Below, piece after piece: positions 1-49,042 of a stretch of 64,000 nt of DNA. Under the pieces are notes generated by a model that ran no database searches, was not told where the DNA came from, and worked only from the letters and a program-made list of their open reading frames with translations. The DNA comes from Rickettsiales bacterium. GTDB lineage: Bacteria > Pseudomonadota > Alphaproteobacteria > Rs-D84. How positions within the stretch are numbered: position 1 is the stretch's first letter; every line of letters begins with the position of its first letter. The DNA lies in assembly GCA_031266915.1 (NCBI GenBank), contig JAISAB010000020.1:1-64000 (forward strand). Reading direction: 5' to 3'. The position numbers were made by a program, and so were the translations under genes.

Positions 1-936
1 GATACTCAACGTGATAAGGTGAATGAGTGGTATGGTTCGACCCTGTATTCGCGTCTGAACGATAAAACTAATGGGAAAATCTTGTTGATCATGCAGCGTC
101 TGCACCAAGATGATTTGACGGGACATCTGTTGGAATCTGATGCAAAATTTGGGCTTGTGAAATTGCCTGTAATAGCGATTGAAAACGAAACATGGCCAGT
201 CAAAAATCGCATATATGGTACGATACGAACTCTGATCCGTAACAAGGATGAGTTATTGCATCCAGACCGAGAAAATTTAGATACTATATTGGACTTAAAA
301 GGTTCGCTCGGTGAGTACGCATTCGCGGGACAATATCAGCAGGAGCCGTGTCCTGCCGAGGGTGGCATAATCAAGGAAGACTGGTTGCAGTATTATGACG
401 CAAGTATTTTTACCCCACAAATGCGAGTGCGACACTTGTTTATCAGTTGGGATACTGCTAATAAATCTGGTGAAAATAATGCTTACTCGGTTGGTTGCGT
501 GATTATCATGACATGGGATTACAAATTCTATTTGGTAGATGTAATCAGAGGCAAATGGGATACGCCAGAGCTGTTTGATAAAATCACAGCGGTTTATAAC
601 GATTATAAGTATGAACAAAAAGCAGGCAATTATGTGAAGTTGTTAATCGAAGATAAAGCCAGTGGTGAATTCTTGATACCGATGCTTAATAAGGCGTATG
701 ACAGTAGAAACCGATTGATTGAAACAATACCAATCAAACCGAGTGGTGATAAAATTTCACGTGCAAAAGCCGCAAGCATCATGATTGAAAAAGGCAATAT
801 GCTGTTCCCACAACATAACGAGCCGTGGTGGTTAGATTTCAAGAGAGAATTGCTCGGGTTTCCAGGCGGTAAATACAAAGACCAAGTGGACGCAATGTCG
901 CAATGCATAAATTACGCGATGGAGCAAGTTGGATAA
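1..936 (+). CDS. Phage terminase large subunit, C-terminal part (ORF runs off the left edge of the window)
   Basis: Reading frame open from base 1; terminase-like ATPase/RNase H-type nuclease features (ISWDTANKSGENNAYSVG, LIEDKASGEFLIP, KYKDQVDAMSQ). Confidence 0.85.
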   Translation, partial: DTQRDKVNEWYGSTLYSRLNDKTNGKILLIMQRLHQDDLTGHLLESDAKFGLVKLPVIAIENETWPVKNRIYGTIRTLIRNKDELLHPDRENLDTILDLKGSLGEYAFAGQYQQEPCPAEGGIIKEDWLQYYDASIFTPQMRVRHLFISWDTANKSGENNAYSVGCVIIMTWDYKFYLVDVIRGKWDTPELFDKITAVYNDYKYEQKAGNYVKLLIEDKASGEFLIPMLNKAYDSRNRLIETIPIKPSGDKISRAKAASIMIEKGNMLFPQHNEPWWLDFKRELLGFPGGKYKDQVDAMSQCINYAMEQVG

Positions 937-10104: not shown

Positions 10105-10770
10105 TTAATTGTTAACTGAATAATAGCAATTTCCTATGTATTCAATGGTGCCTGTATCATCCTCGTTAGTCGCGCCGGCTGGCATATAACAGTTCCCAAT
10201 AACAATACTTCCCGATGCGGACGTCGCGTTGTCGTTTCCGGTCGCGGTCTTGCAGCTTTCGCACCCGCTCAGGCCGTTCGTGCTTCTGCCATAATATCCG
10301 GCTGCGCATCTATAGTCTGAAAAACTCGGGCATCCGCTGCCGCAGGTCACGATTCGCCGTTCATATCCGACTGTATCGGCGACCGTCCAGCCAATGGTAT
10401 CAGCGTTTTCACAAGCCATGCAAGAACTGACATCAGGCGGATTGCTGCATGCTAAACCCAAATTATTCATAATCTCCAGAAAATCCAGGCCGGCGTCAAA
10501 CCAGTTTGATACTTCAGCGAACTGAGAGCCAATGATAAGGTTTTGAACTGAACACATCTGAGAAAACTGAGCTTGCAAACCATAGCAAATAACATTATCT
10601 GCAAAATATTGGACATGTTCGCCATCGCTTTCCCCAACAAGATAATAAATTCTGTAATAAGAGAGCAACTCTGTTGTGAAATCGCAGACAATGTCGGCGT
10701 CCGCGGGCACTGGGTGTGACAGGCCGATTAATGCGGCGGCGCAAATAATAAACGCCTTTGATTTTTTCAT
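10105..10770 (-). CDS. Cys-rich secreted protein (YRC..GYYG..C..C C-terminal domain)
   Basis: Signal peptide MKKSKAFIICAAALIGLSHPVPADA; YRCAAGYYGRSTNGLSGCESC...GNCYMPAGATNEDDTGTIEY; AAGGAGGTT RBS. Confidence 0.7.
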   Translation of the reverse strand: MKKSKAFIICAAALIGLSHPVPADADIVCDFTTELLSYYRIYYLVGESDGEHVQYFADNVICYGLQAQFSQMCSVQNLIIGSQFAEVSNWFDAGLDFLEIMNNLGLACSNPPDVSSCMACENADTIGWTVADTVGYERRIVTCGSGCPSFSDYRCAAGYYGRSTNGLSGCESCKTATGNDNATSASGSIVIGNCYMPAGATNEDDTGTIEYIGNCYYSVNN

Positions 10771-11003
10771 TCCAACCTCCTTTTTGTTTGGGAACGAAAC
10801 AACCGCCCAAAAAGGCGGTCAGGAGGTTGCTAACAATTCGTATGAAATTGTGCCGCGCCTTCGATATATAACGCCAGCCCTCCTGACCAACAGCCAGGAG
10901 CTTTATTTCCATCGCAACAAAAAAACACGCAAAACACGCGCTATTCAAAATTGCGACACATACGAAAGGAGTTAGCACACTCCATCGCGGGAACACCCCG
11001 ACG
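10771..11003 (-). ncRNA. Structured leader RNA, copy B
   Basis: - strand: CGGGGtgttCCCG; GGAG[TGTGCTAA]CTCC with distal TTAGCA; CTCCTG / CAGGAGG / CCTCCTGACC; terminator-like ACCGCCtttttgGGCGGTtgttt. Promoter TTGAAA-17-TATACT. Confidence 0.75.
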
Positions 11004-11095
11004 ACAACGGCAGTATAATTGAAAGCGCCCTGCGTTTCAACAATTTTCTTTTCATGCTTGCGTTTCGGAAACGATTTATATATAATCCGCCGTAC

Positions 11096-17056: not shown

Positions 17057-17920
17057 TTATGTTCCCGACGTGTACGCGCATCCGGTCGCCTCGACCGTGA
17101 AAGTGCCTGATGCGTCGTAATAGGTCCCGGCGGGCAGTTTGCATGTGCCGATGGCAGCATTGAATCCCGCGACATTCGTTCCGCGCGCCTTTATTGTCTG
17201 CGTGCTGTTCGTGTAAATAGTGTCGGATTCCGGGCACTGGGCGCAGCTGGCCACAGCCGCGCCGATAGGTCCGTAATACCCGCTCTTGCATCTGTATCTT
17301 GTGCTGCGGTTGGAACAAGTGCCGGTGCTGACGCAAGTTTCGCCGGTGCAGGTTCCGTCGTATTTCTCTGACTGATAATTCATTCCGGCAACATCTGTAT
17401 AGCCGCTGGAGCCGGCGCACGCTGTGCATAACGCCAGGCACTCTTCGCACACTGGCCAGCCAGCACTGTCGCGCCGCCCCGTATCGGAATATCCGTGCCA
17501 GCAATCGGTGCCGCAGCATTCATATTGTCCGTATTGGCCGCAGCTCGTCGGCGACGAATAGTATGTCAATGTTCCGTATCCTCCGCCGGTTGGTATATCC
17601 GCAAGACCGCAATATCCATTAAAGTGTCCGCTTGCCATGCATTTGGGCTCATAAGTCTCGCTTGGCGGGTTATAGCGGAATGACTCTTCAAAATTTACTA
17701 TGTCCGACGATTTGAAGCAAAGGCAGCTTGCATAAGACTGCGTGCACTCGGCCACCGGATAACATTCGGTGTAGCCGGCGGCGCGCGCGCCGTCATTACC
17801 GCTGACATCGCCTTCGCAATTCCAAGGCTCCACCTTGGGCGCGACCCAGACCGTCCAAGAGTTTGCAAACGCGTTTCCAACAAACATGTACACTGCAATA
17901 ATCAAAATTGATTTCTTCAC
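17057..17920 (-). CDS. Cys-rich secreted protein (YRC..GYYG..C..CP C-terminal domain)
   Basis: GTG start after AGGAGGTTCAG; signal peptide VKKSILIIAVYMFVGNAFA; YRCKSGYYGPIGAAVASCAQCPE...GTCKLPAGTYYDASGTFTVE. Confidence 0.7.
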   Translation of the reverse strand: MKKSILIIAVYMFVGNAFANSWTVWVAPKVEPWNCEGDVSGNDGARAAGYTECYPVAECTQSYASCLCFKSSDIVNFEESFRYNPPSETYEPKCMASGHFNGYCGLADIPTGGGYGTLTYYSSPTSCGQYGQYECCGTDCWHGYSDTGRRDSAGWPVCEECLALCTACAGSSGYTDVAGMNYQSEKYDGTCTGETCVSTGTCSNRSTRYRCKSGYYGPIGAAVASCAQCPESDTIYTNSTQTIKARGTNVAGFNAAIGTCKLPAGTYYDASGTFTVEATGCAYTSGT

Positions 17921-18144
17921 CTGAACCTCCTTTTTTTCAGCGAATGAAAAAACCACCTTGAAAAGGTGGCCGGGAGGCTTCTAACAATCTCATGAATTGC
18001 GCCGCGTATTCAGTATATTCCGCGACCCTCCCGACCTTACGGACGGGATTATTTCTCGGCATGGCACAAAAAAAGCGCAAAAGCGCGCCAAGCCATGACG
18101 CATGAGCAGAGGTTAGAAGACCCCATCATGGGAACACCCCATGA
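17921..18144 (-). ncRNA. Structured leader RNA, copy C
   Basis: - strand: CATGGGgtgttCCCATG; GGGG[TCTTCTAA]CCTC with distal TTAGAA; CCCG / GGTCGGGAGG / CCTCCCGGCC; CCACCTTTTCAAGGTGGTTTTTT. Promoter TTGCTT-17-TATAGT. Confidence 0.75.
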
Positions 18145-18221
18145 CATTCGAACTATACCGGAACAAAAATTATAAAGCAAGAGCTTTCTGGGCAATTATA
18201 TGGATAGAGCACCTGACCTGC

Positions 18222-18424: not shown

Positions 18425-18488
18425 GCTTATGCCAATCCTTTTAAATCACCGCTTGCAAAAATCATCTTTGTAATGTAAAATAACTTAC

Positions 18489-18703
18489 GTCGCGGAGCGT
18501 TTCCGCGACGGGGTGTAGAAACCTCATCGTATAATTCCAGCCACGGCTGGAGGGCGGAGAATATATTGAATAAACCGCACAATTCTACGAGTTGTTTCTA
18601 ACCTCCGGCCGCTTTTTATAAAGGCGGTTTTTTTGCTTCTGTATAGGAGTACAGAAGCGGTATAGTGTGCATGCGGGGGGCCTCATCAACCCCCCGTTTT
18701 TTT
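18489..18703 (+). ncRNA. Structured leader-type RNA, orphan copy D
   Basis: GTCGCGGAgcgtTTCCGCGAC; GGGG[TGTAGAAA]CCTC with distal TTTCTA (18595-18600); CCAGCC / GGCTGGAGG / CCTCCGGCC; two terminator hairpins. Promoter TTGCAA-17-TAAAAT. Confidence 0.75.
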
Positions 18704-18747
18704 ATTGGCTCTAAAAAACTCAAAACTCGTCATTTTTACAAACAATA

Positions 18748-29226: not shown

Positions 29227-29601
29227 TTAATCCTTGTACACCAGAACCGCCCAATAGCTATCGGGCAGGTTGTTCATGCTCACATCATGGGCCAGCACCC
29301 TGTAACAGGATTCGGATGGAACCATGTTTATCAGAATCATATCCGGATTTATTCTTTCTGCGTCTTCGCCCGTTTGTATACCGGTCATGAATTTCGCGCT
29401 TGCTTTTGATTTTGAAATATTAATCAGTCCGTCGGTTTTCACACACTGGACGATAAAGTCGCCCATTTCCGATGGCGACTGCACGACTTCGCAGTCTTCT
29501 ATAACGTCGGTAATTATTTCATATGGCGTTTTCGGTACATCATCGGCATAGACCGAAAACGGCAGTGCCGCGAACAGTCCAGCTATCAGAGTTCTTTTCA
29601 T
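29227..29601 (-). CDS. Small secreted protein, paralogue of 32259..32633
   Basis: MKRTLIAGLFAALPFSVYADDVPKTPYEIITDVIEDCEVVQSPSEMGDFIVQC. Confidence 0.65.
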   Translation of the reverse strand: MKRTLIAGLFAALPFSVYADDVPKTPYEIITDVIEDCEVVQSPSEMGDFIVQCVKTDGLINISKSKASAKFMTGIQTGEDAERINPDMILINMVPSESCYRVLAHDVSMNNLPDSYWAVLVYKD

Positions 29602-29790
29602 TTGTTTTCCTTTTGGTTATTCGCATGCCAAAAGGAAGGCGGCGGGATTCTGAAAAAATCGCAACTAGAACGACCGCGCCCGTTTTCTGTATATGGCGAG
29701 CGCAATCCCGCTTGGGGCGGGACACGGTTTTACGTGCCTGTCCCGGCACGCTAGTTACGAGATTTTTCAGGTCTCGGTTTCCTTTCGGAT
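29602..29790 (-). ncRNA. Structured leader RNA, divergent copy G
   Basis: - strand: TCCGAAAGGA; GAGA[CCTGAAAAA]TCTC with distal TTTTTCAG (+ strand 29650-29657); CCCGC / GCGGGATT / AATCCCGC; CATATACAGAAAACGG loop; TCCTTTTGG...CCAAAAGGA over the RBS. Confidence 0.6.
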
Positions 29791-29854
29791 ACAAAGGTAT
29801 GTATGCTGAATAAAATCATTGAAATCAAGTAGTTTGTTTCGCTATAATCCGACC

Positions 29855-43256: not shown

Positions 43257-43402
43257 GGGTTTCTCCGACTAATTCGATACACTTCCTCTCTCGCCCTCTT
43301 TGAACGAGAGATTATCACAAAAATTATTTCTTTGTCAACAAAAACATTGATGATGGATAATCGCCGCTTGCAAAAATCGTCTGCGTGTTATATAGTGCCT
43401 TT

Positions 43403-43617
43403 GTCGCGGAGCGTTTCCGCGATGAGGCTTGATAACCTGTACTTACGGATTCCAGCAATGGCTGGAGGGCGGCGAATATATTGAATAAGTCGTGCAATTC
43501 CGTAGGATTGTTATCAACCTCCAGCCGCTTTTATACAAGGCGGTTTTTTGCTTCTGTATTGGGAGTACGGAAGCGGATAGTGCATGAACGGGGGCCTCAT
43601 CAACCCCCGTTTTTTTC
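43403..43617 (+). ncRNA. Structured leader-type RNA, orphan copy E
   Basis: GTCGCGGAgcgtTTCCGCGA; AGG[CTTGATAA]CCT (43428-43435) with distal TTATCAA (43511-43517); CCAGC / GGCTGGAGG / CCTCCAGCC; two terminators. Promoter TTGCAA-17-TATAGT. Confidence 0.75.
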
Positions 43618-43713
43618 GTACTGGTCGAATATGATTCGCCCCTACACCGGTATGACGATTTGTCTGGTTCCCGGTTCTTTTCTCTGATAGAATGAAACGC
43701 AAAGGAAACGCAT

Positions 43714-47900: not shown

Positions 47901-48058
47901 TTTGTTTTACTCCTTGCAATATTTTTGACAATGAATTTGTCTGCCCCCCATATAGTTACACCAAAAACTATTTCAAGGTCCATAGGAAAAAATATCATTG
48001 GCGGTCAGAATGTTTTTTTACCTCTTGATTTTCCGTCTTCTTTAATCTAGTATTAAAG

Positions 48059-48283
48059 CATCGCGGGGCGTTCCCGCGATGGGGCTTGATAACCTCTTGT
48101 TAGCGTCGTGACGAATTTACACGCTTGTGCGTCTTTTTTCGTATAACGGCGAAAAATCAACTCCTGACTTAGTCAGGAGGGCGGCGATATATCGAAATAA
48201 GCCGCGCAATTCTAACAATTGTTATCAACCTCCTGACCACCCTTTCAAGGTGGTTTTTGCTTTACCTAAAAAAGGAGGTTTTA
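48059..48283 (+). ncRNA. Structured leader RNA, copy A
   Basis: CGCGGGgcgttCCCGCG; GGGG[CTTGATAA]CCTC (loop 48085-48092) with distal TTATCAA (48222-48228); CTCCTGAC / GTCAGGAGG / CCTCCTGAC; CCACCctttcaaGGTGGTTTTT; AGGAGGTT RBS. Promoter TTGATT-17-TAGTAT. Confidence 0.8.
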
Positions 48284-49042
48284 ATGAAATTTAAATTTTT
48301 CGCAACTTTTATGACAATAATTTTGACATCGACGACACATACCTGGGCGGCATCGTGCTGGATAGCTACAAAACCAACCAGCAGTAACTACATCGCATGC
48401 CTGCAGTCGCACACAGGATATTGGAATTGCAATTCTTCCAGCAGTTGCGGCAGCTCACAAGTAACTGCTGTCACAGGCAAACCCTATGGATTTTCTGATG
48501 CCAATACAATGAGCACGAGCGAAATGACGTCCTGCGGTGTAATCTGTACTCCATATGGTTTTAGAATGTTTGCTAATAACGATGCTGAAGCGATTGATTG
48601 CAACGGTACATGGGATTTAAATTCCAGCACTCGCGAAGCAGTATGTCAATGCAACGTTAGAAGCTGCACTGCTTGCAACAGCGTGTCGGTCGAGCAATGG
48701 ATTGCTATGAGCGGAACGGGCACGATCGTGTTCCAAGTGAAGCAGACCCGCACCGCCACGTGTTCAGGAAACACCTGCACCAGCAACGGCAGCTGCTCTA
48801 CCGGAAGCTGGACCAACACCAACAATTACCGCTGCTCGGCGGGATATTATGGCAGCGTTTCGACCAGCAACTACAGCTGCGCGCTGTGTCCGTGCATGAC
48901 AGACACTGGCGGCGTCAATCGCTGCGGCGCCAGTTCCGCCGGTACTACTCTTGTCAGTGGATGCGTCATGGCGACCGAATACGAATTTAACGACGGGACC
49001 GGCGATTATTCATTTACGACCGCATGTCCGGCATCATTGTAA
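48284..49042 (+). CDS. Cys-rich secreted protein (YRC..GYYG..C..CP domain)
   Basis: Signal peptide MKFKFFATFMTIILTSTTHTWA; NYRCSAGYYGSVSTSNYSCALCPC; AAAGGAGGTTTTA RBS. Confidence 0.7.
   Translation: MKFKFFATFMTIILTSTTHTWAASCWIATKPTSSNYIACLQSHTGYWNCNSSSSCGSSQVTAVTGKPYGFSDANTMSTSEMTSCGVICTPYGFRMFANNDAEAIDCNGTWDLNSSTREAVCQCNVRSCTACNSVSVEQWIAMSGTGTIVFQVKQTRTATCSGNTCTSNGSCSTGSWTNTNNYRCSAGYYGSVSTSNYSCALCPCMTDTGGVNRCGASSAGTTLVSGCVMATEYEFNDGTGDYSFTTACPASL

Follow-up and report, generated by a model that had tools for sequence, protein, structure and literature searches.

A multicopy family of C4- and sRNA-Xcc1-like structured RNAs in an alphaproteobacterium of the order Rs-D84

The closest described counterparts of the RNA family reported here are the C4 RNA of phages P1 and P7, sRNA-Xcc1 (RF02221) and IsrK of the Salmonella prophage Gifsy-1 (RF01394). 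C4 belongs to the icd/ant system of these phages, and the deposited annotation of phage P1 lists a1, b1, C4, a2 and b2. The terminator of IsrK allows read-through, and the mRNA on which the short form of IsrK acts is its own (PMC4825925); the CI/seqA/seqC system of phage P4, to the extent that it is discussed in the same paper, is grouped with IsrK. C4-derived RNAs have also multiplied on a bacterial chromosome, Group 1 of Acinetobacter baumannii comprising 21 copies with a variable a′ strand (PMC5320573), and in an annotation of Xylella isrK lies directly upstream of C4 (PMC12189769). The Rfam clans encountered in the present scans do not unite sRNA-Xcc1 or isrK with C4.

Architecture of the element and its covariation

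The window, by which is meant the whole 64,000-nt stretch of DNA analysed, comes from a Rs-D84 genome of 1.09 Mb and contains seven copies, A–G, of a structured RNA. A covariance model (R1) was built from copies A–E, whereas copies F and G were assigned to a second subclass, and copy F is not recovered by R1.

48059–48260, + strand: copy A, whole RNA element (R1 match, 120.8 bits)
48284–49042, + strand: gene after copy A, encoding an exported cysteine-containing protein of no Pfam family
10796–11006, − strand: copy B (R1, 94.9 bits), preceding the exported-protein gene 10105–10770 (−)
17946–18146, − strand: copy C (R1, 122.0 bits), preceding the exported-protein gene 17057–17920 (−)
18488–18634, + strand: copy D (R1, 151.2 bits), an orphan with a conserved two-hairpin tail and no gene directly 3′
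43402–43551, + strand: copy E (R1, 147.2 bits), an orphan with a tail as in copy D
1824–2038, − strand: copy F, second subclass (x′ GGTCGGGGAG), parsed with the common plan, preceding a small ORF, with a phage terminase gene nearby
29618–29793, − strand: copy G, second subclass (x′ GCGGGATT), parsed with the common plan, preceding the exported-protein gene 29227–29601 (−)

The initial annotation had described these seven copies as the whole family, each with a loop complementary to a distal strand. Inspection of the sequence finds all seven where it had placed them and every loop/partner pair as it was written, namely A TTGATAA:TTATCAA, B TGCTAA:TTAGCA, C TTCTAA:TTAGAA, D TAGAAA:TTTCTA, E TTGATAA:TTATCAA, F TTGTAA:TTACAA and G CTGAAAAA:TTTTTCAG; the earlier extent of copy A (48059–48283) takes in the Shine-Dalgarno region beyond the covariance-model match. 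A phage terminase domain (PF17289) at window positions 19–936 adjoins copy F (1824–2038), and for this reason a prophage remnant carrying one such RNA may form the left edge of the window.

All copies follow one plan, which runs 5′ to 3′ from a promoter through the P1 hairpin, the P2 hairpin with loop a, strand b and, in many copies, P4, to P5 (x:x′), P7 with a conserved loop, P8 with loop b′, strand a′, strand x″ and an intrinsic terminator. In copy A these parts are, all on the + strand:

48025–48053, +: promoter, TTGATT-17-TAGTAT (promoter scan over copies)
48060–48080, +: P1 hairpin (97.7% of alignment cells paired; 7 of 8 pairs with changes in both strands)
48081–48096, +: P2 hairpin, whose loop carries a (the C4 a1 site, 48086–48092; parse and c4-a1b1 alignment)
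48097–48103, +: strand b (the C4 b1 site), with its partner at 48212–48218 (parse and permutation test)
48119–48139, +: P4, a hairpin and T-run between b1 and the C4-like core (weak isrK match, 17.3 bits)
48161–48180, +: P5 hairpin x:x′, with x′ at 48172–48180 (x:x′ self 20.2 vs non-self 15.2)
48181–48205, +: P7 stem with a conserved loop of AUAUAYYGAA type (98.4% of alignment cells paired; 5 of 5 pairs with changes in both strands)
48207–48221, +: P8 hairpin with loop b′ (parse)
48222–48228, +: strand a′, partner of loop a (parse, permutation test and alignment covariation)
48229–48238, +: x″, which pairs with x′ as the C4 closing stem (x′:x″ self 25.5 vs non-self 18.8) and is also complementary to the Shine-Dalgarno sequence GGAGGTT
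48236–48258, +: intrinsic terminator, its 5′ arm overlapping x″ (terminator scan of 135 copies)

A promoter of sigma70 type, with its −10 box 5–6 nt 5′ of P1, precedes 125 of 135 copies in the promoter scan. P4, which occupies the position of the upstream terminator-like hairpin of IsrK and of phage P1, is followed by a T-run in copies A–C and is absent from D and E. Besides the a:a′ contact there is a second, nested one, in which strand b, just 3′ of P2, pairs with the P8 loop (TTGTTAG:CTAACAA in copy A). Strand x′ (GTCAGGAGG), in which a GG begins at the first or the second base in about 122 of 135 copies, has two alternative partners, the upstream x (CTCCTGAC) and the downstream x″ (CCTCCTGACC). 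The initial annotation missed the b:b′ contact, the alternatives among x, x′ and x″, the terminator, the promoter and the fact that D and E lack a gene.

Both contacts were assessed in 135 well-parsed copies. Own a:a′ pairs score 13.4 against 7.0 for mismatched ones, the best of 5000 permutations reaching 7.7, and own b:b′ pairs 17.0 against 7.7, with a best permutation of 8.5; such simple permutation statistics are inflated by relatedness among copies. Chimeras joining the 5′ half of one copy to the 3′ half of another score 32.6, compared with 49.8 for true copies, and both tertiary contacts (loop a with a′, strand b with the P8 loop b′) break down in them; because the parser picks the best pairing, the chimeras were parsed with the same freedom as the true copies. 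In a 66-row alignment 92.4% of cells pair and covariation amounts to 0.677, compared with no more than 0.119 once the partners are displaced by one to three columns; the alignment was fitted to R1 and is therefore biased toward the structure, a bias from which the chimera test is free. Chance origin of the pairings is excluded. The permutation, chimera and alignment tests thus agree in upholding the proposal of a strongly covarying RNA family under selection on RNA structure, and the loop-to-distal-strand pseudoknot is real and corresponds to the C4 a1:a′ contact. The a and b contacts are nearly private: among 53 parsed copies of the source genome, only one pair, nearly identical in sequence, is cross-compatible at both.

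Kinship and distribution

At gathering score an Rfam scan of the window returned a tRNA only, and no Rfam family reached that score on any copy. The earlier statement that the RNA belongs to no known riboswitch holds, since no copy matches a curated Rfam riboswitch family. The companion statement, that it belongs to no known Rfam family, does not hold even though no gathering score is reached, as the 5′ half resembles c4-a1b1 (RF03163), the 3′ half resembles sRNA-Xcc1, and the anatomy is that of C4 in phage P1. In a permissive scan the 3′ half aligns to the entire length of sRNA-Xcc1 (39.2 bits, E=1.1e-5 on 300 nt); several copies give full-length 1–87 alignments, and the core order of closing stem, P7, P8, unpaired strand and closing stem is found. 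Across the genome RF02221 has 27 matches, the best at 46 bits and none above the gathering cut-off of 53 bits; that in copy A scores 31.1 bits at 48172–48245. The c4-a1b1 match in copy A, at 48047–48100, scores 24.1 bits (E=3.7e-4), below the gathering score of 46.7 bits, and 9 of the 11 best RF03163 matches in the genome start at the 5′ ends of copies. These permissive matches were taken as significant because they recur at one place in the element and coincide genome-wide. The C4 model itself (RF01695) matches at no copy, its best score in the genome (19.9 bits) lying away from them, and isrK matches copy A weakly (17.3 bits against a gathering score of 50).

The likeness extends to the contacts, the upstream a1/b1 being complementary to the a′/b′ of the core by the parse, the permutation test and the chimeras. 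With C4 of P1 and P7 the copies share the order of promoter, 5′ hairpin, hairpin with the a1 loop, b1, terminator-like hairpin, core with b′ and a′, and closing stem x′:x″; a reading of the phage P1 sequence finds the hairpins and contacts ordered as here, including a strand complementary to x′ just 5′ of x′. Unlike C4, the Rs-D84 copies have no RF01695 match and no a2/b2 at the ribosome binding site of the gene, their terminator overlaps the closing stem, and they are chromosomal, about 70 in number and mostly located at exported-protein genes. With sRNA-Xcc1 the core x′-P7-P8-a′-x″ aligns throughout, and sRNA-Xcc1 loci too have an upstream P2(a)/b outside the Rfam model; they differ in occurring at 1–9 loci per genome among the genomes sampled and in often retaining a2/b2. 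Nearly all of 30 sRNA-Xcc1 loci above the Rfam cut-off, from other Pseudomonadota, possess the a1/b1 part, and in half of them a2/b2 is clearly recognisable around the downstream Shine-Dalgarno sequence or ribosome binding site. The Rfam model of sRNA-Xcc1 appears to cover the core only, the upstream a1/b1 and terminator-like hairpin and, often, the downstream a2/b2 being parts of the element (loci L187–L216).

IsrK, as a short terminated leader with read-through and strand exchange on its own mRNA (PMC4825925), resembles the half of the present element that consists of a1b1 and the terminator, although it serves single-locus control of a prophage antirepressor and its match to copy A is weak. 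The Group 1 RNAs of Acinetobacter offer a parallel in chromosomal multiplication; they have, however, been described as sRNAs, whereas the Rs-D84 copies are mostly leaders, number at least 71 in 1.09 Mb, and show covariation of a1/b1 with b′/a′ in nearly every parsed copy. Together these likenesses suggest that C4, sRNA-Xcc1, IsrK and the Rs-D84 family are variants of one element, of which the Rs-D84 family is, as far as sequence can tell, a new and hugely expanded chromosomal variant. Integron attC sites were considered, given that sRNA-Xcc1 of Xanthomonas is integron-associated, and rejected: the copies lie scattered, carry promoters of their own and, as judged by reading the sequence, show an order of inverted repeats other than that of attC.

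The seven copies of the window are real but represent a small part of the family. R1 finds about 52 good copies in the source genome, and the second subclass, found through RF02221, raises the total to at least 71; these counts vary with model thresholds, and the sequence is a metagenome-assembled genome (MAG). Tandem arrays of several copies were observed at three loci (L098, L113 and L133). Among 61 genomes comprising the source genome and its relatives R1 matches 45. Within the same family a single genome lacks a match and the others have 1 to 43 copies each under stricter filters; several genomes of the same order also match, and there are matches in none of the 6 genomes from other orders of the class. 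An exact core pattern occurs in at least 112 stretches across species genomes, the matches listed being MAGs labelled alphaproteobacterial, ‘Rickettsiales’, proteobacterial or simply ‘bacterium’ (including Candidatus Enterousia) from samples largely of gut, rumen or termite type, and a thin draw of 241 Alphaproteobacteria added 8 genomes of 1.2–2.1 Mb with 1–5 copies each. The family recurs across alphaproteobacterial gut MAGs that we place in the GTDB order Rs-D84, to which these names and the genome size would also assign the window; reduced genomes of this order have been described as probably those of symbionts or parasites (PMC12306168). A viral origin of the present copies was rejected, the core pattern occurring in only 4 IMG/VR contigs, one of which R1 matches.

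Terminator, downstream genes and orphan copies

An intrinsic terminator lies immediately 3′ of x″ in 129 of 135 copies, and its 5′ arm overlaps x″ by at least 2 nt in 128. As the arm uses part of x″, full x′:x″ closure and terminator formation compete. The state with x:x′ and the terminator is favoured over x′:x″ by 11.8 ± 3.8 kcal/mol in all 135 copies, as computed from nested energies that ignore pseudoknots and co-transcriptional kinetics. Copy G is an exception, having no T-run; there TTCCTTTTGG:CCAAAAGGAA could hide the Shine-Dalgarno sequence instead. Strand x″ is complementary to the Shine-Dalgarno sequence of many downstream genes (best at C1:5436, TTCGAACCTCC:GGAGGTTCGAA), and a′ plus x″ score 15.8 against these regions and 11.3 against shuffled ones; the excess of self over non-self in this pairing is small and could reflect kinship of the copies.

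A leader role had been proposed for the family. It fits most copies, which stand at a nearly constant distance before the Shine-Dalgarno sequence and ATG of a gene, 50 of the 71 in the source genome having both a Shine-Dalgarno sequence and an ORF within 110 nt 3′, but a sizeable minority, including D and E, have no gene directly 3′ and are not leaders. By a simple and crude rule 36 of the 50 downstream genes appear to encode a signal peptide, against 8 of 40 other genes of the window, and in relatives the same rule gives 58 of 90; the remainder are mostly genes for small XRE-type HTH proteins and short ORFs. No Pfam family was found for the genes after copies A, B, C and G. Many copies of the source genome are followed by members of a paralogous exported family that starts with MKKSTIVLALLVWAFAxQGAFA and whose N-terminal 60 residues match no Pfam family. 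Leader-peptide attenuation was rejected on inspection by eye, since the AUG at P1/P2 of copies A–C is not conserved (ACG in D) and has no Shine-Dalgarno sequence.

The gene-less copies of the source genome, D and E among them, carry a conserved hairpin tail instead and may be trans-acting RNAs, to judge from their sequence. A second conserved tail, made up of two hairpins (TTCCATATTGGGAGTATGGAAGYGGATAGYGTGCATGCGGGGGGCCTCATCAACCCCCCGTT), is common to six orphans:

18635–18705, window: tail of copy D
43552–43620, window: tail of copy E
C20:22753, C4:67264, C4:67529 and C10:53741, source genome: the four other tails

Other orphans have GTGGGGC..TTTCTCTCYCC..GCCCCAC, with a CU-rich loop that might base-pair to Shine-Dalgarno sequences. 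On C3 of the source genome (near 15051, 34834 and 54040, − strand) a hairpin repeat, CCCCCTTGATAAAGGGGG(G/A)AAAGTTTTTGTTAGCGTCAGCGTTACAAAAACTTGGGGG, is present three times in nearly identical form and holds the a and b sequences of copy A in order.

Proposed mechanism and alternative readings

It is proposed, with a probability of roughly 60%, that each copy is a chromosomal self-antisense module of the C4/sRNA-Xcc1 type and that most copies are transcript leaders. At the level of sequence the support comprises the separate transcription unit, the two covarying contacts, the competing partners of x′ and the overlap with the terminator, features from which a self-addressed terminator/antiterminator switch is proposed. 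The promoter would start the RNA at P1; the 5′ half, with loop a followed by strand b (a1/b1 of C4), carries the ‘target’, and the 3′ half, with the P8 loop b′ followed by a′ inside a C4-like core closed by x′:x″, the matching antisense. By default x would pair with x′, leaving x″ free and allowing the terminator to form, and the free x″ (AACCTCC) could pair with the open Shine-Dalgarno sequence (GGAGGTT) of any read-through message. Closure of the core by x′:x″ would break the terminator and occupy x″, so that the downstream gene would be transcribed and translated. The state would be chosen by pairing of a/b with a′/b′, either within a single transcript (in cis) or with a terminated copy of that RNA acting in trans, and because a and b differ between loci each gene would answer only to its own RNA. 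IsrK provides an experimental precedent for self-acting leaders of this kind.

A C4-type antisense acting in trans would have RNase P free the core (x′ to x″), which would silence its own locus or unlinked mRNAs through b′/a′, as in phage P1. Similarity to the reported processing site of C4 (PMC5320573) is seen in the conserved GG with which x′ opens and in the ACC or GCC often present after x″; sRNA-Xcc1 is an 88-nt RNA by RACE (PMC2996969), about the length of the core, and the orphans D and E have the appearance of stand-alone sRNA genes. The part by which C4 represses its operon is nevertheless a2/b2, and this was not detected at the adjacent genes, where self complementarity (24.1) hardly differs from that of non-self pairs (23.7) in 134 copies, compared with 32.8 and 26.7 in the sRNA-Xcc1 positive control. 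A search of 219 kb for a2/b2 elsewhere in the genome gave 225 matches in the order a..b and 210 in the control order, and such trans targets were rejected for want of any excess. Action on the RNA's own a1/b1 would be compatible with this absence, but as a whole the trans-acting reading seems unlikely.

The terminator platform of 129 of 135 copies, the possible Shine-Dalgarno-hiding platform of copy G, the x/x′/x″ alternatives, a single core common to about 70 copies and the functional coherence of the downstream genes would also suit a new class of metabolite riboswitch, in which the conserved core (the P7 internal loop and P8) would bind a small molecule and drive a terminator/Shine-Dalgarno switch of a secretome regulon. 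The matches to sRNA-Xcc1 and c4-a1b1 and the anatomy of phage P1, however, account for the RNA through an antisense origin that needs no ligand, the a/b contacts are the most variable parts, as expected of antisense specificity, and orphans D and E control no adjacent gene; a riboswitch is accordingly regarded as rather improbable. High copy number, kinship with phage elements and the terminase gene near copy F might suggest a mobile or decaying phage-derived repeat with no present regulatory role, a view that is largely refuted and to which very little probability is given: both contacts are kept across copies through compensatory change, nearly every copy retains an intact promoter and terminator, and the near-constant spacing before the Shine-Dalgarno sequence and ATG, usually of an exported-protein gene, is not expected from decay.

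Returning to the self-antisense module, a wider reading, held tentatively and at somewhat less than even odds, is that a phage immunity RNA has been domesticated as about 70 insulated copies in a symbiont-like genome of 1.09 Mb, of which the majority would each gate a single gene, chiefly for exported proteins, by terminator/antiterminator exchange, a mode of action that was not found in any described C4 system. We know of no riboswitch or antisense family that attains a density of at least 71 copies per 1.09 Mb, the nearest reported multiplication being the 21 copies in Acinetobacter. If the reading is correct, sRNA-Xcc1, c4-a1b1 and isrK, filed apart in Rfam, would be united in a single modular element whose full-length structure is defined, and the avoidance of cross-talk among many similar RNAs in one cell would become directly testable. 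An RNA of phage lysogeny would then have been turned into a gene-by-gene regulator of the exported proteins of a host-associated bacterium.
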